Virus record (IMG/VR): IMGVR_UViG_3300018418_000064
Location: 1-33,116 of that record
Length of the DNA: 33,116 nucleotides
Reading direction: 5' to 3' (one strand)
Origin: a virus
The notes under the pieces are model-generated. The model was not told where the DNA came from, searched no databases, and saw nothing but the letters and a program-made list of their open reading frames with translations. Both the position numbers and the translations under genes were made by a program. Within the stretch, counting starts at the first letter, position 1; each line of letters begins with the position of its first letter. Shown in pieces: positions 1-32,871 of this stretch.

Positions 1-300
1 CAGCATAACCTTGAATACCATCATAGCCTTGAATACCTTGCACGCCCTGTGCGGCTTGAGGACCTTGAATGCCCTGTACACCTTGAACGCCTTGAATACC
101 TTGTACACCCTGTGCGGCCTGAGGACCCTGTGTACCTTGCATTCCTTGGAAGCCCAAATCACCCTGTACACCTTGAATTCCTTGCGGGCCTTGATGACCT
201 TGGAAACCTCTATAACCGCGAGATCCCTGAATACCCTCTTGACCAAGCGTACCCTGTAGACCCTGAATTCCTTGGTTACCTTGGAAACCCTGTACACCAC
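1..300 (-). repeat. Gly-X-Y (collagen-like) 9-base repeat tract
   Basis: On the minus strand about 100 codons read as Gly-X-Y triplets, mostly Gly-Ile-Gln and Gly-Val-Gln, giving a 9-base DNA periodicity. The tract continues past the left edge. Two near-identical blocks each contain a Gly-to-Ala break (PQAAQG), suggesting one block was duplicated from the other. A shorter run lies at about 475-546. Such tracts can change length by slippage. Confidence 0.85.
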
Positions 301-709
301 GGAAGGAACTAATATTAATCCAATTCGTACCGTCCCAAATCCAAAGCTCATCGTCGGCTTCGTCAATAACACCGTCACCAATGTTTGGTGTAGGGAATGC
401 GGCAGTGAGTGTGGCTTGAGGATCGCCTCCGGCGTCTACATCAGGTACTGATCCAATAATTGTGAAGCCTGGACCATAGTCACCTTGTAAACCCTGAACA
501 CCTTGGGATCCTTGAAATCCCGTAGTACCTTGCGGACCAGCACCAACGTCGACCCATTGCGTTCCATCTGAAAGTTTGATCGTCCCATTTTCTGCATAGA
601 CAATCGCACCTTCAAAAGGAGCCGGGTCCAATTGAATAGGAAATTCCTGTGGTATACCCTGTCCAAGTGTAATCGTCTTGGACCCGATAGATCTAAATCT
701 AGTCGACAT
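1..709 (-). CDS. Collagen-like tail fibre protein, 5' part (runs off left edge)
   Basis: Open minus-strand frame with no stop before the window edge; 236 codons are visible. The start is the ATG at 707-709, which overlaps the end of the preceding gene by 11 bases and has GGAAGAG just upstream. The N-terminus (about residues 1-50, starting [16 protein letters not shown]) is probably the attachment part. A first short Gly-X-Y run (about residues 55-78) is followed by a globular insert containing the motif WIWDGTNWI (about residues 124-132). A long Gly-X-Y run rich in Gln, Ile and Val then continues to the edge. Two repeats lose Gly ([10 protein letters not shown], twice). Collagen-like triple helices are common in phage fibres as trimeric shafts, so a fibre or whisker role is inferred. 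The receptor-binding end lies outside the window. Confidence 0.85.
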
Positions 710-10100: not shown

Positions 10101-11672
10101 ACCTGGTCTATAAGCACAAGCAAAGCCACCTTCTGGGAAGTCGAAGTTATCGATCTTCCAGTTTTGATATGCAAAACCTTGTACATAACAACCCGAACCG
10201 ACAAGGACTGCGTTATTATTTTCATAGCCGGGTAGTGCTTCGATCACCGTAGCATACTGACCCGCAGTAGCTGTCATTGCACAATCATCTGGAAGTGCAA
10301 TATTACCCTTAGTGTAATAAGTGCCCGGGCCTACCGTGATATGAATGGCGTTATTAATTGCGTTACGATCGTAAGAACCGCCGGCTTTTTCTAATGCGAG
10401 CTCAGAAGCACGCTCAAGCGTTCTGATTGGCTCAAGCAACGAGCCAGGATTCTCATCATTACCTTTCGCAGCATCAACATAAATCTTAAGGTCAGACTCT
10501 GTAGTCTTTGAAATCTCACTAAAGAACTGTGCATATGTAATCTTTTCGACTTCACCTGTCTTCTCGTTCTTAAGGGCAAACCAGCTGTTTTCATCAATGT
10601 GAGGCTCGAATTCTCGATCGATTTCCATGTCGAAATCGACGAGTTTAGATTGATCAATAACACCATTTTTAAATGTAGTGTTTTCAATTACACCATTGTC
10701 GAATGTAGAATTCTTTTGTGATAAACCATCAGCTGTTGAGCTGGTGATTGACATATTCGTTGCTACGACACCATCCATCGTGCCTGCAAAAGAAGAATCA
10801 ACAATCGTTGAATTTTGAATAATACTTTGGTCGACAGTAGTGTTGGTAAAGATATTATTATTACCAGTACCATCTGAGAAATCTGAATCAAGAATATCAG
10901 ATTGAGTAATAGTAACGTTATTTGCTGTTGAGTTTTCAATCGTCCCATCAGCAAACGATGAAGTAGTAATAGTAAGATCGTCACCCGTCGAAGATGTAAT
11001 AGCTCCGTTAGTGAATTCACTCTGATCGATTGTAGAGTTTGTGATTGCACCGGTGTCGAATGTAGAATTCGTAATGGTGACATTGTCAGCAGTCGAATCT
11101 GTAATTTCACCATTGGCAAAAGTAGAATTTGTTAAACGTACGTTTGTACCATCTACATCGGCCATTGTGCCGGAAGCAAAAGATGAATTAGTAATCGTTA
11201 CGTTATTGGCAGTAGAATCACCAATGGCACTATCGTCGATAGTTGAGTTAATAAGACGTACGTTGTCGCCGTCTACATTTTCCATTGATCCGTCGTTAAA
11301 CGTAGAATCAACAATGGCCGTATCTCTAATATCGCCATCTCGGAAAAGAGAATTATCAATGTCGAGATTTGTACCGGTTGAATTTCTGAGCGTGCCGTTA
11401 TTAAAATCAGTTCGGACAATATTAGAATCTTCCATGTCTGAATTATCGATTTTAACATTATCGATATTCAAATCATGGATAAAGGCGCCCGATATATCAC
11501 CACCAGTGATAGTGATTCTATTGAAAATTTCGTACATGAGAGCTTGAACAAGCTCTTTTCTCGTGATGTTCTTAGTACCGTCATCACCTTGTACTAGGTT
11601 TACGATAACGAATAAATCTTCGGTCCTAGTATTAGCGCCGGTTATCGACCCGAGTTCTGAAATCTTAGACAT
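1170..11672 (-). CDS. Giant modular tail surface protein (3500 aa)
   Basis: Uninterrupted 10.5 kb frame; ATG at 11670-11672 preceded by AAGGGTAAGGACTAA. Domains in order: a short N-terminal anchor (1-50); an Asn/Thr/Ser-rich pentapeptide-like ladder (about 53-345); a beta-helix-like region beginning KIYVDAAKGNDENPGS (about 396-750); eleven clear plus one degenerate copies of a helical repeat centred on YDxxKCxRDxGYxxDAxxxD; beta modules with TYDPxTGV and HTFVSA motifs inserted between some helical repeats; and a C-terminal domain ending in ELNNQYFARGLRINGRTGR and a basic, Ser-rich tail. Similar end domains and KCxRD repeats occur, from memory, in large structural proteins of T4-like cyanophages, so a tail or fibre location is inferred. 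It follows the S74 fibre gene, with late-promoter octamers in the 75-base gap. I see no catalytic motif. It could bind host surface polymers or be a very long side fibre. Confidence 0.9.
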   Translation of the reverse strand: MSKISELGSITGANTRTEDLFVIVNLVQGDDGTKNITRKELVQALMYEIFNRITITGGDISGAFIHDLNIDNVKIDNSDMEDSNIVRTDFNNGTLRNSTGTNLDIDNSLFRDGDIRDTAIVDSTFNDGSMENVDGDNVRLINSTIDDSAIGDSTANNVTITNSSFASGTMADVDGTNVRLTNSTFANGEITDSTADNVTITNSTFDTGAITNSTIDQSEFTNGAITSSTGDDLTITTSSFADGTIENSTANNVTITQSDILDSDFSDGTGNNNIFTNTTVDQSIIQNSTIVDSSFAGTMDGVVATNMSITSSTADGLSQKNSTFDNGVIENTTFKNGVIDQSKLVDFDMEIDREFEPHIDENSWFALKNEKTGEVEKITYAQFFSEISKTTESDLKIYVDAAKGNDENPGSLLEPIRTLERASELALEKAGGSYDRNAINNAIHITVGPGTYYTKGNIALPDDCAMTATAGQYATVIEALPGYENNNAVLVGSGCYVQGFAYQNWKIDNFDFPEGGFACAYRPGAKLLRSPYIRDSSQLSNFLREDVEPPLQPFNTKGNVLDLGREFILTAPITAGTFRKDDKVTFSSGATGFISWDDDDDDAAGLTKDQSTYRKIRVRNLKNNKGFAVGDLVKSESGGQGVVESIGIDDFPNPLVGRGGGCMLADRRVLDPDSLYTYVLCFGFTPRSQNGMGYVARDGAGVNGIGSLSIFVRVAFYALNGGQMTLNNSGTQFGDISMRAKGSTRIFAPKDVPSGSTIIGNTDFADVITQNEDLIIEDMVDYLTANTSSGGLGYTGYDAQKCERDSKIIIDGLAYDMTLDTNYWGRLAGITYRSPISSKVVGEQLDATLGANRYLQDRINDIFDGANTEIFERANTSWNELYNVVEYGEENMNPIIFADTRNSKRTSAREIIQDNRSFIQDELLDWIDNNDQFFAYDSVKCKRDTTDYILPAAKYDMLLDTNYNAVRAGGAYYMKSAEKVVGQQRNETIAAYRRLKEQTNELIDANSYIGTSRVDAAFDEVIAALDNRGVSFTPTNATYDPETGYSVITIAESEGFTPSAATYDPATGILVATIGPHQLTTDDHVWLKPEGMTFNCNAGSGVQNHAVPEAHHPYYNKPCPIISVTSNTITMNVGGGGPNGQQVHTFVSAVKNAITSGHGLGIGQKVLLKTGGLVFSCDRDNNVSRTGYPRATDPAANSPIEVIGANETKITVNVGKSFDTSAHTFIEAEDDSVITLGSPIAFSDDAGISADRRNARKQLQLNRNFLQDNVMGYIDDNYFLYDSAKCERDMLQYILPAIQRDIITGTNFNSKQTGIAYRAGTQGAETVVMDQLVETVGAINHLKGLSSGTISDQGAIDRSDEGFDQIVDILNNNQKSYTPTGATYDPTTGVMVLTLGAHDLQEGDTVVLADESITFTCALDGNTTQHSYPTTTKTKYTPTNATYDPTTGVFTATIGTHNLQVGDHIKIAPESIVFTCDMDGNATNHPTPESHHPFYKKPVALTAVTSTTITCNVGAAINGGGTHTFVSALADAIEGERQHPAYRTPITINSTTSTTITVNVGGYENGTAHTFVSANPDSVKSGTYISSYTPSTATYDPATGVFEATIGRHNLAEGDYVQFKPESIVFSCTLDGNSTNHAVPESHHPFYNAPVRITAVTSTSITMNVGASTGGAHTFVSADVGAIESDPTIWTDPSRILKYYTPSTATYNPVNGVSVITIPNHDIVVGDWIEFAPYSFTFTCAQDGNATEHSYPRRGDANFNAPMEVTNVAGDDITVNSGIGGGGAHTFVRCINQAVAKTTYNSHGQRAREQLQANRTFLQEEVMHYLDSQYFVFDGDKCSRDTGFILEAVRRDVATGSNYNAIYSGLAYRAGTASGNYVISDQLTQTAAAIGYIRDEVANRLDGTELAASNASFNEIIDILTNGTGAANAINYGTATAGADAGNAQLHLQANKTFLQEEVIAYITQNFPNLSYDAAKCRRDTGYLIDALSWDIAHRSNAGVVNFARLYFNEGVSVLPADQKIKTAEAWEHLANVVALIVRAQAVTPTTGNAEAQDTTNPDAGDINSIRTHDLIEVVSKVIREDTLDWLPTYIEPGYTTAATLDASNKIDGITESLQGGVIKYLREFHNGLPYNKDKCFRDVGLITDAVSKDIEYGGNASTIEAAKYYFTVDERLASSYEELRTRNVLSVPVTGQFSVLDDLAAVSGLREATNILPIEQRVPTKRAFEHLATVAQSVVQETPYATTYTTYSPTNATYDPATGVFTATIGAHSFQVGGKVWLKPNGFTFQCDMGSGPTNHTSPQAHHPYYDQAVTITAVTATEITMNVGDGGSGQAVHTFVSADADSISTGPYQNFDNTAADSTTAAAVRDLFNVISGVVDDNDLDNLTTTEVKPVADPNRTVARKQIQRNKEFIVDEVVAYLNDEFYTFDGDKCKRDVGLLVDAVKRDVLTGSNFNANFNGRAYRIGTVGADAVINEQLTETISAVEYAKLQASNAVTDDAANQRVNAAFDTIINIMGGTEDYANANTMSFGTDAVSAQRINARAQLQNNKVFLQKEMTAWIALNRPSLSYDVAKCERDVGYLVDSVSFDAQHGGNTASRNNAILYFENALSVLPENQREPTAAAFTHLASVAELIANGDPVSPTSGNGESQDTSAASAGNSISAVVEQLMLIVAEAIGENGIDGLPVIEEPTVSSYGTAFQGAYTALETTKPTIQNGVLGHLSTYFNTLSYDETKCRRDTGYIVDAVMHDIQYGGNAATVNAAYNYFQNGVNVGLPLNQRQPANKAFLHLGKVMNHITREMVVTPTVGNTRTQDFAEVAANPMTGMRVEDLVKIVANAVDDATPETTSIPAMVMPETDWILDVYKDSINLIENASENLADQVISFISTTYNGLSFPRGKCRRDVGYLIDAVSHDVQYGGNYATRIAAGIYFENGISVLPADTRTQTADIYNFLGARMSDVVQQIDVAAANTSYTDTRQVIAGTAATATEGASAQSLTGIIESVIRNDSLNGLPVLEEPDTSWIAADLIATAEMIEDNKQELAQDLIHFLHREFDVLDYNKDKCRRDTGYLLDAFSYDLNYGGNTASRWNADFYFWNEIYRIPEDQRVPTARSYQHLGRICKDIVLGRYPGQMVKSGTGTEVEANKVEDLANIFYLTQINNDTTYLPAIEEPDYTWIPDVVKDVSSILEFNKIDLAFDTVRFVNATYQYIDINLTRRDGLNLLKAIRQDFSTVNPAGPPLSDNYQNNGDRQRTRAYTAALFDFDGQHVFPVFNPTTTGLKYMGSVSNNTTALAEIQSRTGDLAVKKNHAYIVATDINNAMANTSGVFTGDVRGNYAGDVYYWNGATWINDGPNNVDLLNSFVQAWAKMRDYLVTLAPDNDHRDMVKALINWGLIDNVMRPETLVFGSLVESIAHQFNGASAGVNRNALPLNFRNLGLPISALASVLSEDGGRVRWSGADELNNQYFARGLRINGRTGRIEGRPFTSSVRKLARRASNSRASI
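4640..4940 (-). repeat. Solitary beta module between KCxRD copies 6 and 7
   Basis: About 100 residues running from SPTNATYDPATGVFTATIG through FTFQCDMGSG, NHTSPQAHHPYY and ITMNVG to HTFVSADADSI. It is the same module type as the cluster at 6290-8583 but sits alone, roughly 1.3 kb further along the coding strand. It enlarges the distance between helical repeats 6 and 7 (888 bases against about 420-490 elsewhere). This supports module insertion rather than an ancestral uniform array. Confidence 0.8.
6290..8583 (-). repeat. Cluster of beta modules, including truncated and nested copies
   Basis: Coding-strand order with approximate limits: a, an N-terminal fragment (8509-8583); b, complete (8213-8508); c, lacking its first strand (7964-8212); then helical repeat 3; d, N-terminal half (7372-7547); e, complete (7063-7371); f, C-terminal half (6940-7062); g, complete (6622-6915); h, complete but diverged (6290-6580). 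The complete module reads TYDPxTG, GDxVxxxPES, FTCxxDGN, NHxxPESHHPFY, TMNVG and HTFVSA. A beta-sandwich or Ig-like fold is likely. The function is unknown. Confidence 0.75.
10638..11516 (-). repeat. Pentapeptide-like ladder in the giant protein N-terminus
   Basis: About residues 53-345 of the giant protein are built from near-repeats of roughly 20 residues, such as STANNVTITNSSFASGTM and STADNVTITNSTFDTGAI. Bulky residues (Ile, Phe, Val, Leu) recur about every fifth position, with Asn, Thr, Ser and Asp between. This is the spacing expected of a right-handed quadrilateral beta-helix of the pentapeptide-repeat type. The match to A(D/N)LXX is loose, so the fold is inferred. It would make a stiff rod joining the anchor to the beta-helix domain. 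Confidence 0.7.
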
Positions 11673-11747: not shown

Positions 11748-12914
11748 TCACCGAATTTTGTTTTTCAAATCATCAACATCTTGCTTTAATTCTTTGATGG
11801 CTTCAACGAGAAGGCCCATCATATTTTCGTATCGTAGGGCTTTATAATCTTCACCATCATCTTCAATATATTCGTAAACCACCTCTGGTAAAACTTTTTC
11901 TACGTCTTGAGCAACAAGGCCAGTTGCTCTCGAACCTGGCTTATTAATATATTCAAATGTGTAACCTGTTAATTCATTGACTTTATCGAGTGCACCTTCA
12001 ATTTTCTGAAGATCGGTTTTAAGACGAGAGTCAGAGGAACTGTGTTGAGATCTTACGTTACCAGTAGCATGCACATTTCCGTTAACTTGTACTGTACCAT
12101 TAAATATGTGTGTGCCTGTACCAAGAGCGCTAAGCTCTCCTCTTGTTTCCAAGGATTGTGTAAATTCACCTTCGCCAATAATACTAAGCTTACCGCCGGC
12201 GTAAACAGCGCCGTTCTCGCCCTGTATTTGGCCACCGCCGGTTGCAGTTAATAAGTAACCATCAACATCACCGCCTGCAAACGTAGCACCACTTGTAGAA
12301 CTACCAGCGTTATCAGTACCAGGCGCCCATTCTGTACCGTTCCATTTTAATACCTGACCTGTTGATGGTGATGTCGTCGATACATCGGGAATATCAGATA
12401 ATTCATCAATGCTCGTACCCGAAGTGAATGGATCACCATTTCCATCAAGGTATGTTGTCGCTTGAATTGTTGGAACGGTAAGAGTTCCTGCTGGCGTTAA
12501 TACAAATTTAAATGGATTTTCTGTACCGGTATTGATAATAAAATTACCGGACGTAGAATCTTGTAATCCAACGTCCCACGCGAGACTTCCAGTACTTGTA
12601 CGAATCCTTGCACCTTGAGCGCCATAAGTAAATGTTGCTACAACTTGTTGACCAGTCGTAACATTAATTGGAGAAGTAAAGTCAATGTCAGCGCCCGGTG
12701 TTGCAGAAGCAAATGCGTCTCCAGCAATTTGGTTTGTCGCTGTTACGTTAGTAGCCGTAAAGTCACCGACCAGAGTGGCGTCACCGGTTGTAGTATCACC
12801 GCCCGGTGAGGCTGTCATAGCATCAGACTGAAAAATGTCTACCATTTCATTGGTTTTATCAAACCAATTCTGGAACGTTACAGTTGTATCGATATTTGCT
12901 ATACTTTTAGCCAT
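11748..12914 (-). CDS. Tail fibre with C-terminal S74 intramolecular chaperone
   Basis: 388 residues. The C-terminal ~97 residues are a typical endosialidase-type chaperone domain (Peptidase S74): SDSRLK at 294-299, ATGLVAQDVEKVLPEVVYE at about 330-348, LRYENMMGLLVEAIKELKQ near the end, and a closing coiled coil. In this family the domain trimerises the fibre and then cuts itself off just before the Ser of the SDxRLK motif, so Ser294 is the likely self-cleavage residue. Upstream is a Gly/Thr/Ser-rich beta shaft, with a module LSDIPDVS...GQVLKWNGTEW (about residues 170-195) shared with the 403-residue protein. The N-terminus (about 1-40, VTFQNWFDKTNEMVDIF) is probably the anchor. The mature fibre would end near residue 293. 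It is likely a receptor-binding fibre, judged from family and position. Confidence 0.9.
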   Translation of the reverse strand: MAKSIANIDTTVTFQNWFDKTNEMVDIFQSDAMTASPGGDTTTGDATLVGDFTATNVTATNQIAGDAFASATPGADIDFTSPINVTTGQQVVATFTYGAQGARIRTSTGSLAWDVGLQDSTSGNFIINTGTENPFKFVLTPAGTLTVPTIQATTYLDGNGDPFTSGTSIDELSDIPDVSTTSPSTGQVLKWNGTEWAPGTDNAGSSTSGATFAGGDVDGYLLTATGGGQIQGENGAVYAGGKLSIIGEGEFTQSLETRGELSALGTGTHIFNGTVQVNGNVHATGNVRSQHSSSDSRLKTDLQKIEGALDKVNELTGYTFEYINKPGSRATGLVAQDVEKVLPEVVYEYIEDDGEDYKALRYENMMGLLVEAIKELKQDVDDLKNKIR

Positions 12915-18715: not shown

Positions 18716-20371
18716 TTAAAATTCGAGAACGATTTTAAACTCTTCTTTTGCTACAGTATTTTCCACTAAACCATTCTCGACATTTTCTGACGTTCTATTC
18801 AATGGGAAGAAATTTTCCATAAAATAAACTTTGCCAGATCTTTGAATATATGGCGAGACAACAACATTATCTGCTGCCGGTGTATTTATTTCAATTATCT
18901 GGCCCGTCTCGTTTCTCAATGATCGAGTTAAGTCGAGTGAAGTATCACCGTTTCCAGTATTAGCGTTATTTTGATAAGGGCCCATATAATGAGCTAAATA
19001 AATTTTATCATTTGTTTCATCAATCTCGTGCACTCGGCCTGAGAAAGTAACGTCTTGTGTTTCTGAACTAATTTGCACGACCGTTGTATTAGCAGTCACA
19101 CGATCGGCGTTTGCTGTAGTAATTTCTATACGATTATCAAAAACTTCTGGTGGGGTCAGTGTACTAAACTCTGGATTTTTAACAATGCCAACAGAAGCAT
19201 AAGTGTTTTCATTTGGAATTACATTGTTGTCATCGGTAGTAATATAAGCGTAAAGACTATAATGTCTACATCTAAATTCGTTAATTAAATTATAGCCATG
19301 ATCACTATCAGGCGTAAGAACTGCTCGTATCGAAGCTCTTACGTCTGTTGTTTCTTGGCTGCTTGGATCAAAATCATAAGCTGGATCGACAACCTGAGCA
19401 GTGACATTATTATATCCATCACCGGGATTTAATACAATAATTGTAGAAATTCTTCCATCGACTACAGTAGGAATTGCAACTGCACCAGAGCCATCGCCTT
19501 CGATTTTGATTGTAGGGAAAATACTAAACGATGCGTTTTGTTTTACTACTGACGATCCGCCTCCCTGTGTAACAGGATCAATATTCAATCGTATGTCAGC
19601 TAGACCCGTTTGATCATCATAATTATATGCTGTAATTTGATAGAGGAACGTTGAGCTATCTGGATTCGTAAAATAAATTGATTGTCCTACGTAATAATCT
19701 TCGATAGGATTAAACGTACCATCTGGGAAAACTTCGACGACACTATTAACGATATCTGTATCTGTTACTCGACCAGTTTCTTCTATGTAACCAAAATTAT
19801 CTTCGTTGTTCTGAACAATAATATCAGATATTCCTCCACCAGTATTGGCAGAAGGATTAGTATCAAAGTCACCTACGATAGGAACAAAACCCTGTGAGTT
19901 ATATGCATCAAATTCTAATTCACTGATAACATACATGTACTTCCAAATATAGCCATCTGCTGTTCTATAAATTTGATCGACAGATGACTCGTTAAATGCG
20001 GGAGGACTTGTTACTCCAGCACCATAGTTATTAAACAGACACTTATAGACTCGGTAATCTCCAGTGTCGTTGTCGTTTGGTCCAACAACGCAATAGAACC
20101 TTTGGCCTTCTAATTCTTCTGAGTCGTCATACTGTACAAACACATCATCTCTTTGCCAAGGATAGTACTTGATCATGAAATGTGTGTCTCGTGTTTTAAT
20201 CTTTTTACCAAAAATTACTTTTTCTAAAAATTCTGTTTTAGAGACCTCAGTGTCGGCAGGTATAATTTCATTAATTGAAGACGCAAAAATGTAATAGTCG
20301 TTATTCTCGACGTCGTTTGCAAACCGGCGTGTTGCGTCTGCTTTAAATTCTGTGGTTAAAATTTCTGGCAT
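18716..20371 (-). CDS. gp8: Baseplate wedge protein gp8
   Basis: 551 residues, against 334 in T4. Three segments match T4 gp8 as remembered: YRVYKCLF (106-113, T4 LVYRCLD), DGYIWKYMYVIS (139-150, T4 DGYVWEYLFEIP), and the C-terminus SGKVYFMENFFPLNRT...FKIVLEF (T4 SGEMIYMENRPP...INILFTF). The extra length lies between these, about residues 165-500, with a repeated beta-rich pattern such as GAVAIPTVVDGRISTIIVLN and NPGDGY. In T4, gp8 dimers join gp10, gp7 and gp6 in each wedge. Here the gene follows the protease gene, and a late-promoter octamer lies in the gap before the protease. SD-like AGGTTGAG precedes the ATG. Confidence 0.85.
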   Translation of the reverse strand: MPEILTTEFKADATRRFANDVENNDYYIFASSINEIIPADTEVSKTEFLEKVIFGKKIKTRDTHFMIKYYPWQRDDVFVQYDDSEELEGQRFYCVVGPNDNDTGDYRVYKCLFNNYGAGVTSPPAFNESSVDQIYRTADGYIWKYMYVISELEFDAYNSQGFVPIVGDFDTNPSANTGGGISDIIVQNNEDNFGYIEETGRVTDTDIVNSVVEVFPDGTFNPIEDYYVGQSIYFTNPDSSTFLYQITAYNYDDQTGLADIRLNIDPVTQGGGSSVVKQNASFSIFPTIKIEGDGSGAVAIPTVVDGRISTIIVLNPGDGYNNVTAQVVDPAYDFDPSSQETTDVRASIRAVLTPDSDHGYNLINEFRCRHYSLYAYITTDDNNVIPNENTYASVGIVKNPEFSTLTPPEVFDNRIEITTANADRVTANTTVVQISSETQDVTFSGRVHEIDETNDKIYLAHYMGPYQNNANTGNGDTSLDLTRSLRNETGQIIEINTPAADNVVVSPYIQRSGKVYFMENFFPLNRTSENVENGLVENTVAKEEFKIVLEF

Positions 20372-20410: not shown

Positions 20411-22804
20411 TTAGCCCGTAAGCTTTTTTCGATATCTTGGATATAGCACTCCGGTGTCTGCTTCTTTGGGCTTTCCAACCGGTCCACGAACAGTCGTAAT
20501 ATATTTACCATTATTACCTCTGTCGATTGCCCAAGGTAATCCTATATGTAAGTTAGTCGATCCTTGTAATTGAAGAGTTACGTAATCATCATTGCCCGTT
20601 GTTCCGGCCGGATGACTAAAGATACCGGTTTCATTGGTCGATGTCTTTGCTGAATAAAAACCGTCCGGACTTGTATAGCCACCTTTAATTACGTGGTTTG
20701 ATACAAAGCCTAAGCTTGCCGTAGGCGCATTACTCCAATCATAGCCGGGATCGTCTTTCATTCTTGGTCGCGCGTAATTTCTCATTCTTGTTTTTAATTG
20801 CGCTATCGTTGGATAAGTGCCTGTTCGAATAAAGAAATCTTCGACAAAGCAAGCACCTACACCGCAAGCTACTGGTGCTGCATTACTCGTGCCTGAGAAG
20901 TATGAATAGTATTCTCCAGAACCATTGTTCATATAACCACCGCCGAAGTATCCATTAAAATCCGGCGCGCCTGCATAATACATTGCGCCTGGAGCCCATA
21001 AATCAATTCCCGGACCTCTACAACTATAAGAATCTGGATATGGATATTTCGTACTAGGTTGTGCAGCTCCAATCGTAATTCCATTTGTTTGACCTTGGTC
21101 ATAAGTTCGAAGAGGATAATGAGTTAAAGGACTACTTAACGATGGACCACCACCGAGAGATGAACTGCTTCCTGACCAATTAACTTGTGTATAACGACTT
21201 CCAGCTTCTTGAACAATATAGTTGTCCCATTCTGGTAAATCTTGGTGACCAAAATTAATCGCTGAATTCCCGGCACTACGGAACCAGTAAAAGCCATCAT
21301 AATTAGTAAACGTGTTAATTATGTTATCAAGTGCAGTAAAGCGTGAATTTGTATCTCGTGTCATAACAAACCACTTAACCTGATTATCATTCTGATCTTG
21401 AGCTGTTCGAAGATTAAAGCCAGCCTCACTGAAAGCAGAAAGGTCATTACCCCATCCACCGCCGGGACGATTAGTAGTGACAAGTGTTCCGTCACTCGTG
21501 TAACGACCTATTTGCGTAACATTATCAACTGGAACTAATCTATCAAAGTAATACCATGCGTATCCCCATGCAGCCATTGTCACTGTTGCATTTCTTTTGC
21601 CTGTTTCTGGATTGACTGGCTTTGAATTATGCCAGTTCAACACTGCGTTAATCATACCTTCTGGTGTTACGCCACTACCAAAATAAGCTATTCTAACTTC
21701 TGATCCTCTAGCGTATCCAGTAAATAAACCTGCAGAACTTGACGCAACGCCAGCTGAATGATATCCAAATAATTCACTGTTGCTCAGCTGATTATTTTCT
21801 GGCGTATTCATACTACTGTCGTAATTTGACCAATTCATTTTTACTAGGCGACTACCACTCGGCTTGACAAATTGTATAGTACCAGTCATTGCTGGATGAT
21901 TGACACAAGTGTATGTAGCGCTATTCAAACCTCCCTCTTCAAACCAATCTGCATAGAGAGTGATTGTACTCGCTGTTCCGTTACCAGCCACACCTTCTCG
22001 GTAAGGAGGATTGCCGCTACCAGGAATACCGTATGGAGCTTGTGTTGTAACCTTTATTGGGTGAAAAGAACCGGCGTTATTTGTTATAATAAGCTTATCA
22101 CCGTAATTCAGCTGTATAGTCGGATTAGATGCATTAGTAAGAGTACCACCTCTATGCGTACCATTCACAATATACGCAGACGTTCCATTCGCAGTAAAAG
22201 TCAAATTATACGTCTGAGGATCAAACACCGTCCAATTTTCGTGATTTTCAAAATCAGTATTATAACTTGTTTGAACATCGCTATTAGATTCGAGACACAC
22301 AACATCAACGTATCGACCAATTAATTTGTGCCTATGTGTTGTGTTAAAATCTACGGCTTCTCCATCCCAATTAAAGTGGCCGATAGGATAACTAGGGTCT
22401 GCACCTCCCGAGGCTTGCAGTCGTTGATCTGGCTGTGCGCCTGTAATATACACATGACTTAATGGACTATGAGTGGAGCCATGCGAGGCATTATCAGTTA
22501 TAGCCGAGGAAGAATTAACGTATGCACCACCGTCGAGGTTAATACTTGCTCTAAAACTGGCGTATTTTTGAAATTCAGTAACATTGTACGAAAAGGGTAT
22601 TGGATCCTCTGATTTTTCTACAGAAACAACGTTAGTGCTTTCTTGTAACGTCGTTGCCTCTTCTTCTGTAAGGTTGAGTATAACCCAATTGTCGAAGTTA
22701 TTGAGGTTAGTATTAAGATCCAGATTAGCCGCGTCGCCCGTTTCGAGGAACGCCGCTTCGTCTGTGCCTGGTACAAGTTCAACTCTGTAGGGTGATTTAT
22801 CCAT
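20411..22804 (-). CDS. Subtilisin-like (S8) serine protease with inserted cupredoxin domain
   Basis: 797 residues. N-terminal part (about 5-66, LTEEEATTLQESTNVVSVEK) resembles an I9-type propeptide/inhibitor. The S8 core shows a first strand YVDVVCLES (165-173) where the catalytic Asp normally sits but Glu172 is found; His349 in GYHSAGVAS; the oxyanion Asn513 in RSAGNSA; and the nucleophile Ser640 in FSGTSNAAP. Between the Asp and His regions, residues about 199-314 form a cupredoxin-like domain with His248, Cys300, His303 and Met306 in the amicyanin-like order CxxHPxM. No signal peptide or membrane segment is visible, as expected for a virion protein. The gene lies between the gp7-like/403-residue pair and gp8, so it is probably tail-borne; it could mature phage proteins or digest host surface protein. 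Its ATG is two bases past the stop of the preceding gene. Activity is uncertain because of the Asp-to-Glu change. Confidence 0.85.
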   Translation of the reverse strand: MDKSPYRVELVPGTDEAAFLETGDAANLDLNTNLNNFDNWVILNLTEEEATTLQESTNVVSVEKSEDPIPFSYNVTEFQKYASFRASINLDGGAYVNSSSAITDNASHGSTHSPLSHVYITGAQPDQRLQASGGADPSYPIGHFNWDGEAVDFNTTHRHKLIGRYVDVVCLESNSDVQTSYNTDFENHENWTVFDPQTYNLTFTANGTSAYIVNGTHRGGTLTNASNPTIQLNYGDKLIITNNAGSFHPIKVTTQAPYGIPGSGNPPYREGVAGNGTASTITLYADWFEEGGLNSATYTCVNHPAMTGTIQFVKPSGSRLVKMNWSNYDSSMNTPENNQLSNSELFGYHSAGVASSSAGLFTGYARGSEVRIAYFGSGVTPEGMINAVLNWHNSKPVNPETGKRNATVTMAAWGYAWYYFDRLVPVDNVTQIGRYTSDGTLVTTNRPGGGWGNDLSAFSEAGFNLRTAQDQNDNQVKWFVMTRDTNSRFTALDNIINTFTNYDGFYWFRSAGNSAINFGHQDLPEWDNYIVQEAGSRYTQVNWSGSSSSLGGGPSLSSPLTHYPLRTYDQGQTNGITIGAAQPSTKYPYPDSYSCRGPGIDLWAPGAMYYAGAPDFNGYFGGGYMNNGSGEYYSYFSGTSNAAPVACGVGACFVEDFFIRTGTYPTIAQLKTRMRNYARPRMKDDPGYDWSNAPTASLGFVSNHVIKGGYTSPDGFYSAKTSTNETGIFSHPAGTTGNDDYVTLQLQGSTNLHIGLPWAIDRGNNGKYITTVRGPVGKPKEADTGVLYPRYRKKLTG
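21863..22210 (-). other. Cupredoxin-like (type 1 copper) domain within the S8 protease
   Basis: Residues about 199-314 of the protease. The domain starts with YNLTFTANG, includes YGDKLIITNNAGSFHPIKV (copper ligand candidate His248) and ends with SATYTCVNHPAMTGTIQFV (Cys300, His303, Met306). The order and spacing, an early His after a beta strand and C-x2-H-P-x-M in the last loop, match small blue copper proteins of the amicyanin/pseudoazurin type. All four ligands are present. Copper binding is inferred from this pattern. Confidence 0.8.
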
Positions 22805-22805
22805 T

Positions 22806-24029
<1,224 letters not shown>

Positions 24030-24060: not shown

Positions 24061-24870
24061 TTAGTAATTTGTGTTATAGTTGTCTTCCAAGAACTTGTTC
24101 AAGAGATTTTCCATATCAGCCGAAACTGTATGTCCAACCGTGTCTGTTAAGAAAACAACGTCATCGTATTCTATGATAACACTTTCTGTACCGTATGTTG
24201 TTCCATTTGCTAGTTGTGCCTGAGCCCATCCTTGCTTCTGACCCAATGCATAAGCTGAGTCTGCAGCACTGAGGAATGTTGTACTAGCTACACCCGCTCC
24301 ACCTGCATAAGGAACAGTTACATCAAGTGAACCATTCATCTGCAAGATCTTTCTTTGTGGTATGACACCTTGTAGTGTATCGTATCCTGCATTTGCATAA
24401 GCGCTGCCAGTTAAATTATGATTCGATGGATAATAGAAATTACCGCCTCTATATTGATCAACATGAGCTTGTGAAATCAGACAAGCGATTGTATCGACAG
24501 CGAGGTCAGATATTTCGACAGAAGCTCTGAGTGCTAATGCACCACCGTTTGACACACCGACAATTCGAATCTTAGTAGCATCGACATTTCGATAGACTTT
24601 CAGTTGATCGACCATATCTCTCAACATCTGAATGTCTGGTCCTTTCGATACTTCATTAGTAACATTCCATGATTGCTCGTAACCATCGATTCCAATGAGT
24701 ATGTGGCCCGGCAGAGTCGAAGCAAACGATTGTACCATACTATTTGCGCTGCCGCCATTACCATGTAATAGGATAGCAACAGGATATGGCTCAACACCAA
24801 CCGACGGCATTCCTACTTCTACTGTATAATCGTGGAATCCTTGACTCCAGTTTCTTCTCAGCGTTAATTG
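24061..24870 (-). other. Alpha/beta-hydrolase esterase domain fused to the wedge protein
   Basis: Residues about 884-1148. The layout (HGNGG, then GxSxG on a nucleophile elbow 71 residues later, then Asp, then His near the end) resembles the polyhydroxybutyrate depolymerase / feruloyl esterase (LpqC-like) group of secreted hydrolases. The Ser986 codon is at 24550-24552. The triad is complete, so activity is likely. Plausible substrates are acyl or acetyl groups on surface polysaccharide, but the substrate is not readable from sequence. Confidence 0.8.
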
Positions 24871-27507
24871 TGGACCAGACGTCGTTCCAATTGCCGGCAA
24901 GCCGGTGCCAGGTGGCTCGTGGTCTGCCGTAGGAATTGTAGCATCTACATAATAGTTAACAATATCCGCAGTCAAGCCTGTTACTGGTGCTTCATCAAGA
25001 GGACTACCAGCTGTAATACTATTCATAAGTCTGAGGAACTTGACTTTAGGTGGTGATCCTGTCAATGCGGTGTATTGGAAATCACCAAACATTTTTGTAC
25101 CGGCTAAGTGTACATTTTCTTTTAATAGCCGCTCATATTCTCGTCTGCCCAAAGTCGATTTGATTTGATAAGAATATTCTTGATAGAAATCACTATCCTG
25201 AATCTTCATACCAGAGTCATAGTACTCGTAGCTATTTTGATATTCGTACAAGTTAGGATAGTTTCTAAACCATACCTGCTGCTTAATGCTTGGAGAAATA
25301 ACATCATTCCAACGATCGATTGCGTATTGAGGTGTATCACTATTACCTTCGGCAATATCACGAATTGTTTGAATGTCGGTATTTGAAATCGATGTAAATG
25401 TGCTATTAGCAGATTCGTTGAAATCAAAGAGTAGAACACTATCTGCTGCAGCACTTCCAGCCCATAGCCCTATTTCGGGTGGTGCAGTAATAAGTCCATC
25501 GTAAACTTCTTGAACATAATCTGCGAGGTCGTCTGTCGGTAAAATAGGTGTTGATAAAGTTTGCGGAAGCTCTTCGAATCCGTTGAGGTGTGAAGAGAAG
25601 TCAGACCAGAATCCACCGGTCTTTCCTTGAGTTTCTGCACTTACTATACCGACCGCGTGAATTTGTTCGTCGACATCTTCAATCGTACATGATTGGCCTG
25701 TTACATATCCAAAGCCAGAGTCGACAACATTGACTTCAGAAATCTTTCCGATAGCAAATTCTGTTTCTGCGTCAATCACCGCGTTTTCGCCAAGGATCGG
25801 CGAATCATAATCTATCGACACGCCGCTCACTGTAACATTACCATTCGCTCGAATAATAGGGCTTCCAGTAAATCCATAGTAATCAAACGCGACGACTGAA
25901 ATAAATCCTTTCTGCACGTTGATTGCTTTGACTTCACCTCTGATGCCCGTACCAGCTTCTTCGATAATTGATCCGACATCAAAAAGTCCGGCTGAGGAAG
26001 GCTCAAGAAAACTAATTAATTGACTCTTTCGCTTAAACGTAGAAAAGATATCATCCTTCGCTAACGCAAATACATCAAAGGTGTATTCACTACCTGGATT
26101 AATATTTTCGAACTCTTCAATTGAACCGATAGTAAGTGTCTGAATATCAAACGCTTGATTCAATGGTGTACTTAAATTAACTGGTGAAGCAGTACCAGAG
26201 AATGGTGCATTCACTTCGTAGTCTGGAATATTAAGTACTGTTGCTAAGTGAGGAGCAATTAAGTCTGTAATAACGTCTACGTTAGTTGGATTACCCAGCG
26301 CAAGAATTTTGACGTCGTCTGTCGATCCTGTATCAACATACATATCACCGGGCGAAGTATCATTCTTTGGAGAAACAAGTCCAACCCACGACGGGTCAAT
26401 TATCACATTAGGACTACGATCCACTGTAATAAGTGGAAGTCTATTAATACTAAATTCACCATGAATTCCTGAATAAACTTGTACACCTAAAACGTTATCG
26501 GATTGTCCTACTACTCGTGCTTCGTTTCCAGCAAAATCCCTTATTCTTTCATAAGGCTCAAATGTAAGATCTTCTCTATTTTCTTCAAATTCTACTTGTT
26601 TAAAAAGAACTGATTGGTTAGATACGACGAGACGAGTATTATCGATAGTGTATCCATAGCCACCATCTTCGATTGTGTAATTAATTTCTCCGGAAATATC
26701 GTCAGACACCTTTGTGACTACGACTTCACCACCTCGACCGGTCGATGTTTTAACTTTATAAATGTCACCTACTTTATGTCCGGTTGTTGCAGCCTGATCT
26801 CCGTCGTCGATAGCAACAGAATCAAGTGAACCTGCAATCCGACCAAAAGAAACAACTTCACCATCAATATTCGTAATGATATCGTCAAACTTTTGGAACG
26901 TGCCTAAGACTTCATCGAGATAAATGATTGGCGTAAGGATATTATTAAGAATGACAAAGTTAATTTTGTCAACAGCAGCCTGGGCACCCGAAGATGAACC
27001 AGTAATTGTTCTTCCTAAGAGATCTTGGTAGCTATATTCGCTACCCGTGGTGCTAAAGAACTTATTCTTATTTGGCACCATTTGTAAATAAACGCCGTTT
27101 TTCCACTTAGAGTTCGACACCTTAAACATGTATCGAGCTGGATAAGTAATCTCAGCTTCATATTCGTCAAAGAAGAGAGCAAAGAATAATTGTATACCCG
27201 CGGGTGTGCCTTTTCTTCGATAGAGATCGAGAATATTTTTAACAATGAATCTAACGCTGTCTGAATCATTAAGTGGAAGATCTGCAAGAAACTTTTTCTG
27301 AAAGAAAATAATCATGCTCTCAAGAGTCGTATCGATATCACGATAATCGAATATTCTTCTTGAGTTATAGTGTGTTTGCTTTGTATCTGTTTCTAGAAAA
27401 TTGTAGTATTCTTCAATAAGCGAAACGAGCTCTTCGCCATTTTCCCTGTATATCGCAGGGAATTGCGACTGAATAAAAAAAGCAATATTCTTTTCGATTT
27501 CCGCCAT
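24061..27507 (-). CDS. Large baseplate wedge protein (gp7 position) with C-terminal esterase domain
   Basis: 1148 residues (T4 gp7 is about 1030). The N-terminal domain (about 10-140: QFPAIYRENGEELVSLIEEY, RRIFDYRDID, FIVKNILDLYRRKGTPAGIQ, SNSKWKNGVYL) is of a kind found in large wedge proteins of T4-like cyanophages. A beta-rich middle follows. A conserved segment YYDSGMKIQDSDFYQEYSYQ ... VHLAGTKMFGDFQY (762-812) would normally be close to the end. After a linker, residues about 884-1148 are an alpha/beta-hydrolase: HGNGG (915-919, oxyanion region), GVSNGG with Ser986, Asp1062 in GSLDVTVPY, and His1126 in DTVGHTV. Location between gp6 and gp8 gives the gp7 assignment, which rests on synteny more than sequence. 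AGGA precedes the ATG. Confidence 0.8.
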   Translation of the reverse strand: MAEIEKNIAFFIQSQFPAIYRENGEELVSLIEEYYNFLETDTKQTHYNSRRIFDYRDIDTTLESMIIFFQKKFLADLPLNDSDSVRFIVKNILDLYRRKGTPAGIQLFFALFFDEYEAEITYPARYMFKVSNSKWKNGVYLQMVPNKNKFFSTTGSEYSYQDLLGRTITGSSSGAQAAVDKINFVILNNILTPIIYLDEVLGTFQKFDDIITNIDGEVVSFGRIAGSLDSVAIDDGDQAATTGHKVGDIYKVKTSTGRGGEVVVTKVSDDISGEINYTIEDGGYGYTIDNTRLVVSNQSVLFKQVEFEENREDLTFEPYERIRDFAGNEARVVGQSDNVLGVQVYSGIHGEFSINRLPLITVDRSPNVIIDPSWVGLVSPKNDTSPGDMYVDTGSTDDVKILALGNPTNVDVITDLIAPHLATVLNIPDYEVNAPFSGTASPVNLSTPLNQAFDIQTLTIGSIEEFENINPGSEYTFDVFALAKDDIFSTFKRKSQLISFLEPSSAGLFDVGSIIEEAGTGIRGEVKAINVQKGFISVVAFDYYGFTGSPIIRANGNVTVSGVSIDYDSPILGENAVIDAETEFAIGKISEVNVVDSGFGYVTGQSCTIEDVDEQIHAVGIVSAETQGKTGGFWSDFSSHLNGFEELPQTLSTPILPTDDLADYVQEVYDGLITAPPEIGLWAGSAAADSVLLFDFNESANSTFTSISNTDIQTIRDIAEGNSDTPQYAIDRWNDVISPSIKQQVWFRNYPNLYEYQNSYEYYDSGMKIQDSDFYQEYSYQIKSTLGRREYERLLKENVHLAGTKMFGDFQYTALTGSPPKVKFLRLMNSITAGSPLDEAPVTGLTADIVNYYVDATIPTADHEPPGTGLPAIGTTSGPQLTLRRNWSQGFHDYTVEVGMPSVGVEPYPVAILLHGNGGSANSMVQSFASTLPGHILIGIDGYEQSWNVTNEVSKGPDIQMLRDMVDQLKVYRNVDATKIRIVGVSNGGALALRASVEISDLAVDTIACLISQAHVDQYRGGNFYYPSNHNLTGSAYANAGYDTLQGVIPQRKILQMNGSLDVTVPYAGGAGVASTTFLSAADSAYALGQKQGWAQAQLANGTTYGTESVIIEYDDVVFLTDTVGHTVSADMENLLNKFLEDNYNTNY

Positions 27508-29388: not shown

Positions 29389-29805
29389 TTATCTTATCCT
29401 TTCTAAAATAACGTTAAGTATGATTGGCTGTTGTTGACTTTGTACATAGAATCTTACAGTTACACCGACTTGATTGTCATCAATATTCGATGAAACAGTT
29501 ACATCAATAAGCTCAGCTCGTGGCTCATAAATTTCAACTGTCGTTCTAACTCTGTCTTCGATAATCTTAATAACGGCGGGCGTAATATTTTCAAACAAGA
29601 GTGCACGAATACCACCACCAATAAATGGCTGCATTAAACGCTCGCCTGGATCTGTAAGGATCAGGTTTTTAATTGATTCTTTTACTGAATCTTCGTCTTT
29701 CAAAACGGCAATGTCGTTTGAGACAGGACTTTTAGCGAGATCTTTTCTGAAGTCAGAATATAGGACTGGCTTCTTCGTTCTCGGTGTATATACTTGAACT
29801 GTCAT
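29389..29805 (-). CDS. gp25: Baseplate wedge protein gp25
   Basis: 138 residues (T4 gp25 is 132). The segment NLILTDPGERLMQPFIGGGI and the next residues RALLFENI are the family signature (GPW/gp25). In contractile tails this protein sits in the wedge core with gp6 and connects to the sheath. The ATG overlaps the stop of the M15-peptidase gene (ATGA), with GAGG about eight bases upstream, pointing to translational coupling. Confidence 0.95.
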   Translation of the reverse strand: MTVQVYTPRTKKPVLYSDFRKDLAKSPVSNDIAVLKDEDSVKESIKNLILTDPGERLMQPFIGGGIRALLFENITPAVIKIIEDRVRTTVEIYEPRAELIDVTVSSNIDDNQVGVTVRFYVQSQQQPIILNVILERIR

Positions 29806-31325
29806 CCTTGCGGCCTCGGCTTAAGATCTAAATGTACAAAACTACTATTTACCTTACAGTAACGGAATCCTTTTTCGAGAGCAATCCTACACATTTCGTC
29901 TGCGTCTCCAATGATTTCTACATCGACTGCTAAACCAGTCAAATGCGGAGACTCAGGTGATGCTCCAATTTCTTCGTTATATGCTTCGTCTCTCCAGCCG
30001 GCAATCACGTTGAGCTTGCCTTGCCCTAGAGCTTCTTGAAGCCTCACTAAGTAGACCTTTACATCGAGATCTATATTAACCCAACCTTCAAGCCCTAATA
30101 CTTCTGGATCTGTCCAGTCGCCTGAGATCTGTATTTTTGGATCCGTTCCTTCCTTTACTGCTTTACAGCTAGGAAGACCAAAATATTCTTTTACAGTCGG
30201 TGGAGGCGGGTTAACTGTTTCTTCATTCTCATCCCACTGCTGTTCCATACTATTTATTACTTCTTTCTTACGTTCGTCTGATAAACGAATACCACCATTT
30301 CTGACGGCCGTAGAAGTGTTAAGATTGGAAATAGTCTTTAATCTATCAGTAATCCTTCGATACCGATTTGTATAATCCGCAAGTGGTTGATTTACATCTC
30401 GAATCAGAGCTTCGATTTGTGTAGCATAAGCACAAAATCTCATAATCATGAACTCAATTTCTTCAAGCTGTGGATTCTGAAAAAGTCCTGCAACATAATC
30501 AATTAAGCTTTCTGTTTGCTCCTGAACGCTTTTCTTTTTGTCATCGTTAAGAAGCAAGCAGGCTCGCTCTTTTTGTGCTACGATTTGCTTGACGATATCT
30601 TCTCGAATAAAGGTACTAATATTTCCAATGATTTCTTCAATATTAAAGTTCTCAACAATAGAAGCAACCTCTGCAAAGACCTGATTAATTAACTCTGTAA
30701 TTAACTTTTTGATTTCGTTAATTAAAAATTGGATTGTCAGTTTTTGTGCTAAAGCATCGAGAGCTTCATCAAGATTTCTAATAGTAGCTAATATTTTTGT
30801 GATAGCATCTTCTATTGCAACAAGCGTATCAAAGAAAGCGTCAATCGCGCCAAAAACTTGAGGAACAAGCTTACAAAAACCACCTAATATACTATCAGAA
30901 AACGATGCTTTATAATATCCATCGAGGTCTCCAAGCAAACCAGTATAGTTATTATTACCTTTGTTAATTAAGCTTTGAGGCGTAAGGTTGTAATCATTGA
31001 GGAAATCAGAAAATTCAATATTAGTAATGTTACCCTTGTTCCATCTTTTTTCGAGATCTGGATAATTGGCTAACTCTTCTTGAACATAAGGAGCCCTAAA
31101 GAAATCACCATTAAGGAAATCGCGTGCGTCGTAAATCGAATCACCATAAAGATTAATTGCTTTCTTAAGTGGATTCGTTTCAGCATCTCGTAAGATACTT
31201 GCAGCGTATTCCTCAGCAAACTTATTTACTTGACTAATCGTAAATTCACCTTGCGCATCGACGAAAGGCCCGTTTGCCGAGTATTTTATTGTCTGATCAG
31301 TAACGTCTACGCAATTAGAAGCCAT
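29802..31325 (-). CDS. Hub-associated protein with C-terminal M15-type peptidase domain
   Basis: 507 residues from the ATG at 31323-31325. That start is chosen over one 129 bases upstream because it has AGAGGAAT in front and avoids overlap with the spike gene. Residues about 1-130 are unrecognised (MASNCVDVTDQTIKYSANGP). Residues about 150-345 are long amphipathic helices or coiled coil (IEDAITKILATIRNLDEALD, INEIKKLITELINQVF). The C-terminal ~90 residues are an M15A-type (D-Ala-D-Ala carboxypeptidase/endopeptidase-like) fold: GWRDEAYN, then SPHLTGLAVDVE with zinc ligands His461 and Asp468, then FVHLDL with His498. It probably cuts peptidoglycan peptide during tail penetration. Position right after the gp5-like gene supports this. 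The coiled coil suggests it may also act as a tape-like or hub plug protein. Confidence 0.8.
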   Translation of the reverse strand: MASNCVDVTDQTIKYSANGPFVDAQGEFTISQVNKFAEEYAASILRDAETNPLKKAINLYGDSIYDARDFLNGDFFRAPYVQEELANYPDLEKRWNKGNITNIEFSDFLNDYNLTPQSLINKGNNNYTGLLGDLDGYYKASFSDSILGGFCKLVPQVFGAIDAFFDTLVAIEDAITKILATIRNLDEALDALAQKLTIQFLINEIKKLITELINQVFAEVASIVENFNIEEIIGNISTFIREDIVKQIVAQKERACLLLNDDKKKSVQEQTESLIDYVAGLFQNPQLEEIEFMIMRFCAYATQIEALIRDVNQPLADYTNRYRRITDRLKTISNLNTSTAVRNGGIRLSDERKKEVINSMEQQWDENEETVNPPPPTVKEYFGLPSCKAVKEGTDPKIQISGDWTDPEVLGLEGWVNIDLDVKVYLVRLQEALGQGKLNVIAGWRDEAYNEEIGASPESPHLTGLAVDVEIIGDADEMCRIALEKGFRYCKVNSSFVHLDLKPRPQG

Positions 31326-31326
31326 G

Positions 31327-32871
31327 TTATTCCTCTGCTGAAATATATCCGCCAGTCGACTGAGTATTCTCAAACTTAATATAAGAGAGAGAAGTAGACT
31401 TTGCGGGTGGTTCGGGCATCTTACATTCACCTGCATCAATTGTAGGTAATGCAAATTTTGCGGTCGTTGAATTCAGTCCAAAGAGCCGATCGGTCGCAAA
31501 TCCAGAAGCCAAAAGTACAACGTCGTCAATAGCAACAGTAGGTGCTTTTATTGAAACATTAGCCCCCGATTGCATTACTGCTCTCGTGATCCCAGATAAA
31601 GAAAGATCTCCAATCGCTTCGATAATTGCGTTTGTTGAAGCCCATAAGCTCATCGGCCCAAACGAATCCATTGTTATGCCGCCCGGTCCAGAAGTTACAT
31701 GCAAACCGGTACCAACCGAAGGAACAAGTGCAACGTCTGGAACAAGCGCATTACAAGTAATATACATGTTACTCTGCTGCATGTGCACGCTCGAAGTAGA
31801 TGTAAAGAACATACTACGTTCTGCAAAGAATTCAAACTTACCGGTCGTGAGAGGTGCTAATGGATTCAGCGTAGCATGCTGATATATTGTGTTGCCTTTA
31901 ATATTGACTCGTGTCTTGCCTTGCATTTGAATTTCTTTTTCTGCAAGGACTGTCATTGTACCCACGTTAGCTTGAATGTTAACGTCTGCAGCTCTCATTT
32001 GAACCTGTTCAGATCCATTTAAATTGAGTTGAGTACCTGCAGTAATGTTTGTCGTGCCATGAACGAGTAAGTTATAATTGCCTTCGATCTCTTCGGTCTT
32101 ATTGCCCTTTACGTAAACATGAGCATCACCACCAATTGTAACTACGTGATGGTGGCCAACACCTTCATACTTATTAAGCTTCGTTATGTCGTGCTTAGCG
32201 CCTACAGATTTTTCTGCGACATTACCTTTTGAATCGATTTGAACATACGACCCTTCTTTATGTCGAATCGTAATTCGCTCACCACCCGGCGTGTCATCGA
32301 GCTCAATAGAATGGTGAGCAGTTTCAATCACTCGATTGTGTGGATACTTAGTAGCATAAGCCGATTGTGGTTCAGACCACACTTTATCCGTGCCACCAAT
32401 TTTAAACTTTTCCATCCTATTTAATTCATGACCGGCGACACCAGTTTCTTCAATGCTTTCGCCTCGTGCCAATCGTGACATTTGAGGATGGCCAATATCT
32501 CTCGGCGTAAGTCCTTTACCTAATAATTTTCCATCTCGCTTTGGAATAACACCATATTTGTTTACATCTGGATTTGGTGGCTCTACAAACTGAGTCGGTA
32601 ATAGACCGAGTACGACAGGATGCTGTGCATCTCTTCCGTCGAGGAACATACCCCAAACAAACGAGTTCAAAGACGGGAGAGGATTATTTGGGTCGTAGTT
32701 TCCGTGAGATACCATTGCCCACGGTAAATCTTCTGTAGAAATCTCTTCGTTAGTGCCATGAATACTAAACGCACGCACTTTGACTCGTCCAAGTAATGTT
32801 GGATCGTCGTTATCTTCAATAACTCCTACGAAGAAAAGCGGATTTCGTATTCCTACGCCTTGCTCAAACAT
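31327..32871 (-). CDS. gp5: gp5-like central spike / baseplate hub protein, no lysozyme domain
   Basis: 514 residues. The N-terminal OB-fold (about 10-92: LFFVGVIEDNDDPTLLGRVKVR, then LPWAMV, FVWGMFLDG, PVVLGLLP) is the gp5/VgrG start. A trimerisation entry follows (NRVIETAHHSIELDD at 179-193; GSYVQIDSKGN at 207-217). Residues about 245-450 form a repetitive beta-helix with alternating hydrophobics (VYVKGNKTEEIEGNYNLLVH, IQANVGTMTVLAEKEIQMQG), the needle of the tail tip. T4 gp5 has a lysozyme domain between OB-fold and helix. Here the space (about 95-175) is too short and lacks lysozyme motifs. The next gene supplies an M15 peptidase instead. GAAGG is upstream of the ATG, and the gene starts three bases past the preceding stop. 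Confidence 0.88.
   Translation of the reverse strand: MFEQGVGIRNPLFFVGVIEDNDDPTLLGRVKVRAFSIHGTNEEISTEDLPWAMVSHGNYDPNNPLPSLNSFVWGMFLDGRDAQHPVVLGLLPTQFVEPPNPDVNKYGVIPKRDGKLLGKGLTPRDIGHPQMSRLARGESIEETGVAGHELNRMEKFKIGGTDKVWSEPQSAYATKYPHNRVIETAHHSIELDDTPGGERITIRHKEGSYVQIDSKGNVAEKSVGAKHDITKLNKYEGVGHHHVVTIGGDAHVYVKGNKTEEIEGNYNLLVHGTTNITAGTQLNLNGSEQVQMRAADVNIQANVGTMTVLAEKEIQMQGKTRVNIKGNTIYQHATLNPLAPLTTGKFEFFAERSMFFTSTSSVHMQQSNMYITCNALVPDVALVPSVGTGLHVTSGPGGITMDSFGPMSLWASTNAIIEAIGDLSLSGITRAVMQSGANVSIKAPTVAIDDVVLLASGFATDRLFGLNSTTAKFALPTIDAGECKMPEPPAKSTSLSYIKFENTQSTGGYISAEE

Follow-up and report, generated by a model that had tools for sequence, protein, structure and literature searches.

The window analysed here is the whole of a 33,116-base IMG/VR virus record from a T4-like environmental phage. 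On its minus strand, at 20411..22804, lies P0001, the gene for a 797-aa S8-like protein of the baseplate region that carries an insert and is recognised by matches to Pfam, PHROG and a protein of phage S-CAM1. The open reading frame is present whole in four further IMG/VR contigs at 99.6-100% identity. Residues 8-715 match PHROG 15006, annotated 'tail fiber protein' (E 1e-37), and the closest protein among phage records is the S-CAM1 'tail fiber protein' (25.6% identity over 88%). The identities and codon coordinates of the residues on which the discussion turns (172, 248, 300, 303, 306, 349, 513, and 640) were checked by script. The original prediction held that the protein contains a cupredoxin domain, and this core observation is confirmed by the reality of the reading frame, the predicted fold, the ligands, and the profile score.

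P0001 sits within a baseplate operon whose order is gp5, M15 peptidase, gp25, gp6, a gp7-like protein, a gp9/10-like connector, P0001, gp8, and a large structural protein, with gp5 and gp25 named by comparison with relatives. The upstream neighbour (22806..24017, minus strand) is a gp9/gp10-like tail-fibre connector, with a Pfam T4_gp9_10_N match above the cut-off and an N-terminus related to phrog_677, and the downstream neighbour (18716..20371, minus strand) is the gp8 baseplate wedge subunit (phrog_438, E 5.7e-48). Gene order, together with the tail assignment of PHROG 15006, suggests that the P0001 product is a component of the virion. Between 18716 and 32871 the baseplate genes are nearest those of the phiM12 group and, set against phiM12, include the connector and S8-cupredoxin genes as extras. 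Specifically, the nearest phage relatives of gp5, gp6, and gp8 belong to the Sinorhizobium phiM12 group, and in Sinorhizobium phage phiM12 the genes follow the same order, except that gp8 comes after gp7 with neither the connector nor P0001 in between. Since the phiM12 order lacks these two genes and the surrounding baseplate genes are phiM12-like, the connector and P0001 look like an accessory block placed on a phiM12-like baseplate. A cyanobacterial host was considered and is unsupported, given that gp5, gp6, and gp8 are closest to Sinorhizobium phages. PF00124, the photosystem reaction-centre family, was absent from six related records, all of which are fragments. An alphaproteobacterial host therefore appears likelier than a cyanobacterial one.

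Several other minus-strand genes in the window merit description. The gp7-like baseplate protein (24061-27507) has no Pfam match, and its C-terminus (residues ~879-1145) is esterase/lipase-like, resembling phrog_2576 and, more weakly, the esterase/lipase family phrog_789. The M15-peptidase protein (29802-31454) is listed with a TTG start that gives it a 128-base overlap with gp5 (31327-32871); its true start is probably an internal ATG (MASNCVD). Toward the other end lie a collagen-like GxQG repeat protein that runs off the end of the window (2-709), a structural protein of 3500 aa whose N-terminus has pentapeptide-like repeats (1170-11672; Pfam Pentapeptide_4 above the cut-off), and a tail protein with a terminal Peptidase_S74 intramolecular chaperone domain (11748-12914).

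Across the whole of P0001, Peptidase_S8 was the sole Pfam family found (residues 491-657, 1.5e-6, above the cut-off), and the protein aligns with S-CREM1 and S-H38 relatives that match Pfam S8 nearly end to end, establishing homology to the S8 family. When 79 non-redundant phage S8 proteins were aligned, His349 (21758..21760) and Asn513 (21266..21268) fell at the catalytic His and oxyanion Asn positions, and Ser640 (20885..20887), within GTSNAAP and supported also by the Pfam match, at that of the catalytic Ser; the position of the catalytic Asp is occupied by Glu172 (22289..22291; all on the minus strand), so that the Asp-His-Ser triad is incomplete. The catalytic acid is Asp in 67/79 of these proteins and Glu in the remaining 12, namely P0001, the S-CAM1 family, and the two lineages denoted L017 and L076, which are monophyletic in the tree and retain the His, Asn, and Ser positions, one contig stopping before Ser. 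Because the triad Asp is Glu throughout this clade, we class P0001 as S8-like and not as a proven protease. Its proteolytic activity is doubtful, and the core is predicted to be reduced or altered in activity through the Asp-to-Glu change; activity is nevertheless uncertain rather than excluded, as full retention of His, Asn, and Ser means that P0001 may still be a protease. The designation 'protease' in the original prediction is thus unproven.

The insert lies in the loop between the catalytic acid and His of the S8 core, as had been proposed, although the acid is Glu172 and not Asp. A spacing of about 30 residues between the two, taken originally as the baseline, fits ordinary subtilisins; in phage relatives the loop is longer, with a median of 59 in other phage S8 proteins and 55 and 57 in the insert-free L017 and L076 of the same clade. 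By comparison the spacing is 176 in P0001, leaving an insert of about 119 residues, or one domain, and 169-178 in relatives of S-CAM1. The domain is present where it was first reported and is best drawn slightly wider, as residues 194-316 (21857..22225, minus strand), with the unpermuted topology indicated by AlphaFold2, Foldseek, and a linear profile.

AlphaFold2, given an alignment of residues 194-316 with 60 further phage domains, predicted a beta-sandwich consisting almost entirely of strand (pLDDT 87.7, pTM 0.81), with one long loop of low confidence (model residues ~61-80). This domain and the permuted form described below were modelled separately, since full-length alignments misplaced the insert owing to C-terminal and permuted copies. 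The top Foldseek matches in the PDB were a three-domain nitrite reductase, rusticyanin, a two-domain laccase, and plastocyanin (E 2e-5 to 1e-3), with modest TM-scores of ~0.5 to PDB cupredoxins, and the model together with these matches argues for a Greek-key cupredoxin fold, as originally predicted. Among predicted viral structures the best match came from Synechococcus phage ACG-2014e, an S8/S53 protein with TM 0.77; further S8 proteins, tail fibre proteins, and baseplate connectors followed closely. Sequence comparison was consistent with this assignment once multiple sequences were used: phmmer found no match among PDB sequences for either whole P0001 or the domain alone, but a profile of nine phage domains recovered leading matches that were nearly all plastocyanin, rusticyanin, amicyanin, azurin, or copper nitrite reductase (E 0.001-0.1). 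Against Pfam Copper-bind the P0001 domain scored 17.4 bits, below the 21.2 cut-off, and that of a relative, L130, scored 28.5 bits, above it. A profile of 90 phage domains, nearly all from other loci and with the P0001 copy contributing 1/90, gave the P0001 domain 69.5 bits. This score, and the finding that the four ligand columns are the sole invariant columns in an alignment of 61 domains, indicate that the resemblance is not due to chance.

The predicted copper site comprises His248 (22061..22063) as first ligand, Cys300 (21905..21907) as thiolate ligand and the only Cys in the domain, His303 (21896..21898) as second His ligand, and Met306 (21887..21889) as axial ligand, all on the minus strand. 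Each residue occupies the position originally assigned to it, and the ordered His-Cys-His-Met set of a type 1 site is complete, with an amicyanin-like CxxHPxM spacing. All four are invariant in the 61 domains. In the set of 90 domains (<70% identity, mean pairwise 35%) the first His is kept in 98%, Cys in 99%, the second His in 99%, and Met in 100%. Both sets were partly collected by a CxxHxxM pattern and are thus biased for C, H, and M, but not for His248. Each ligand is present in 26/26 of those among the 90 that came from outside the pattern scan, some of which were obtained from a search with YYYICQFH among six patterns. The cleanest sets are nine domains found chiefly by comparing entire domains or entire proteins, in which H, P, C, H, and M are invariant, and 18 permuted domains, in which all four ligands are invariant. 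A predicted fold other than that of a cupredoxin, and loss of the Cys or His in most homologues, had been named as arguments against the original prediction; the model matches cupredoxins, the homologues nearly always keep both residues, and the reading stands. A disulphide instead of copper was rejected, given the lone Cys in 79/90 domains, that of P0001 included. Overall, a type 1 copper site in the P0001 domain is well supported, and the site is predicted to bind copper.

The domain is widespread in phage proteins. In most of the phage S8 proteins sampled it is C-terminal; it lies between the His and Asn of the core in S-BM3, L180, and L193, between the Asn and Ser in L130, and in the acid-His loop in P0001 and the S-CAM1 family. 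Non-S8 proteins of the tail fibre, collagen-like, and baseplate-connector types carry it also. The CxxHxxM scan yielded at least 120 contigs, and among the matches listed 110 domain-bearing ORFs were non-S8 and 11 were S8. Ten non-S8 carriers drawn at random from the matches listed belonged mainly to PHROG tail fibre, collagen-like tail, connector, and virion structural families, some with collagen repeats. In addition, an apparently non-S8 and unrelated phage protein (L099, 3959-6280) has a cupredoxin mid-protein. Judged from this distribution, the domain is a mobile module of phage tail proteins and is not special to P0001. The original prediction named no comparable arrangement, but the arrangement is not unique: a search for homologues revealed that cultured S-CAM1 phages have a cupredoxin in the same loop, albeit permuted, and that S-BM3 has one in another.

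The S-CAM1-family insert is circularly permuted, with the CxxHxxM strand first. Against the linear profile, the inserts of S-CAM1 relatives match in two parts, the C-terminal part first (13-21 bits) and the N-terminal part second (56-66 bits), and a profile rotated at column 87 matches them in one piece at 76-94 bits. The P0001 domain matches the linear profile in one piece and the rotated profile in two (50.8 + 13.5 bits), and other domains not of the S-CAM1 type likewise favour the linear over the rotated profile. A representative permuted domain was modelled with pLDDT 89.5 and pTM 0.83. Foldseek comparison of this model with the PDB gave no significant match, which is expected of a sequential aligner on a permutant and proves nothing either way; the case for permutation rests on the rotated-profile test. 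Among all loci fetched, clear permuted copies were confined to the S-CAM1 family. Permuted cupredoxins within an S8-like core are seen in L006 (1468-3723; S-CAM1) and in its relatives L018-L079. In several family members another permuted copy lies between NRP and GWGSDL; it is 57-65% identical to the first within one protein, and members close in the tree may differ in whether they have it.

An IQ-TREE phylogeny of core columns placed P0001 outside (L017,(L076,(permuted forms))), with UFBoot 100 at these nodes. Since the insert-free lineages L017 and L076 separate the linear from the permuted forms, the acid-His loop was probably invaded twice, and two separate captures are the simplest reading. 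Alternatively, one capture may have been followed by permutation and two losses.

We favour, with moderate confidence, an explanation in which P0001 is an S8-core protein of the baseplate or tail periphery and the insert is a mobile type 1 copper cupredoxin serving as an accessory decoration of the virion. The domain would be an accessory beta-sandwich displayed on the particle and used much as other phages use Ig-like domains, giving the particle more reach, more stability, or a weak hold on surfaces. The loop from catalytic acid to His would be a permissive host for it, and a copper ion acquired from outside would lock the cupredoxin fold. Because the ligands are more conserved than a structural spacer requires, room is left for a redox- or copper-dependent role. 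We give some credence, well short of preference, to a bolder reading in which phages, many of them marine, have made the blue-copper fold into a mobile module of the virion that repeatedly entered loops of protease-like baseplate proteins, in one family as a circular permutant. Its copper would then be functional, and the virions would be extracellular copper proteins relying on ambient copper for stability, adsorption, or proteolysis. A beta-sandwich with the cupredoxin fold whose site has no copper in the virion, or takes another metal such as Zn, strikes us as very improbable. The long low-confidence loop in the model would suit it, but for Met as well as His-Cys-His to be kept so strictly at 35-44% mean identity is difficult to account for unless a metal is bound, and Met in a type 1 site points to Cu rather than Zn.

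A more specific function has also been considered for the insert's position. As a copper or redox switch, the domain would reshape the active-site cleft on metal loading, activating the protease at the host surface or silencing it in the producing cell. The position of the insert, flanked by two catalytic residues, the invariance of the ligands, and the retention or repetition of a core-loop insertion within one clade are all compatible with this idea. We nevertheless regard it as quite improbable: the same domain lies far C-terminal in most relatives and occurs in proteins without a protease core, L017 and L076 lack the insert within the same clade, the second copy varies between close relatives, and Glu stands in for the catalytic Asp whether or not an insert is there. 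The sensor role suggested by the original prediction, if peculiar to the protease, is likewise unlikely given the occurrence of this domain elsewhere in S8 proteins and in unrelated tail proteins. That same breadth of carriers, most of the 10 random ones matching tail fibre, connector, or collagen-like tail families, could instead reflect an adhesin for a specific envelope protein or glycan of the host, for which the S8 core would act as a scaffold (pseudo-protease) or as a surface-clearing enzyme. The clade-wide Asp-to-Glu change and the PHROG label of tail fiber protein agree with such a host-binding module, which we still hold to be unlikely, as its metal-ligand residues are constant across very different phages; receptor-binding surfaces usually diversify. 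Decoration of the virion by an accessory cupredoxin remains the explanation that we prefer.

If copper is bound, virions would display type 1 copper proteins on their exterior, an unrecognised class of metalloprotein display, with a possible tie between copper chemistry and phage infectivity. Regardless of copper, the proteins form a natural series (no insert, linear, permuted, two permuted, and other loops) that should help in working out how phages come to house entire domains within the cores of enzymes. Furthermore, many proteins labelled hypothetical, tail fibre, or peptidase gain a domain identity.

S8 peptidases were already known in T4-like cyanophages (PMC3037559). Among open-licence papers, no description was found of cupredoxin domains in the tail or baseplate proteins of phages or in proteins of cyanophages. 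The known cyanophage plastocyanin gene, petE, specifies a separate and different protein. The closest counterpart, YP_007672920.1 of Synechococcus phage S-CAM1 (PHROG 15006), shares with P0001 the S8-like core, Glu in place of Asp, a cupredoxin in the acid-His loop, and all four ligands; it differs in being only 25.6% identical and in having a permuted insert, to which some metagenomic relatives add a further permuted copy at a different loop. The cyanophage S8 peptidases of ACG-2014i (YP_009140959.1), S-H9-1 (QPB08157.1), and AG-345-P14 likewise combine an S8 core with the phage cupredoxin and intact ligands, but have the domain at the C-terminus and the catalytic Asp present. In the peptidase S8 of Synechococcus phage S-BM3 (WDS61281.1) the cupredoxin is inside the core, as in P0001, although it occupies the His-Asn loop of a much longer protein that has the catalytic Asp. 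Ig-like domains, small mobile beta-sandwich modules in many phage tail and head proteins, belong to a different fold family and are without a metal site. Amicyanin, plastocyanin, and rusticyanin match the P0001 domain in fold, in the nature of their four ligands, and in the order of these, amicyanin also in its CxxHPxM spacing; these proteins are free electron carriers, whereas the P0001 domain sits inserted within a tail-region protein and has no evident electron partner.
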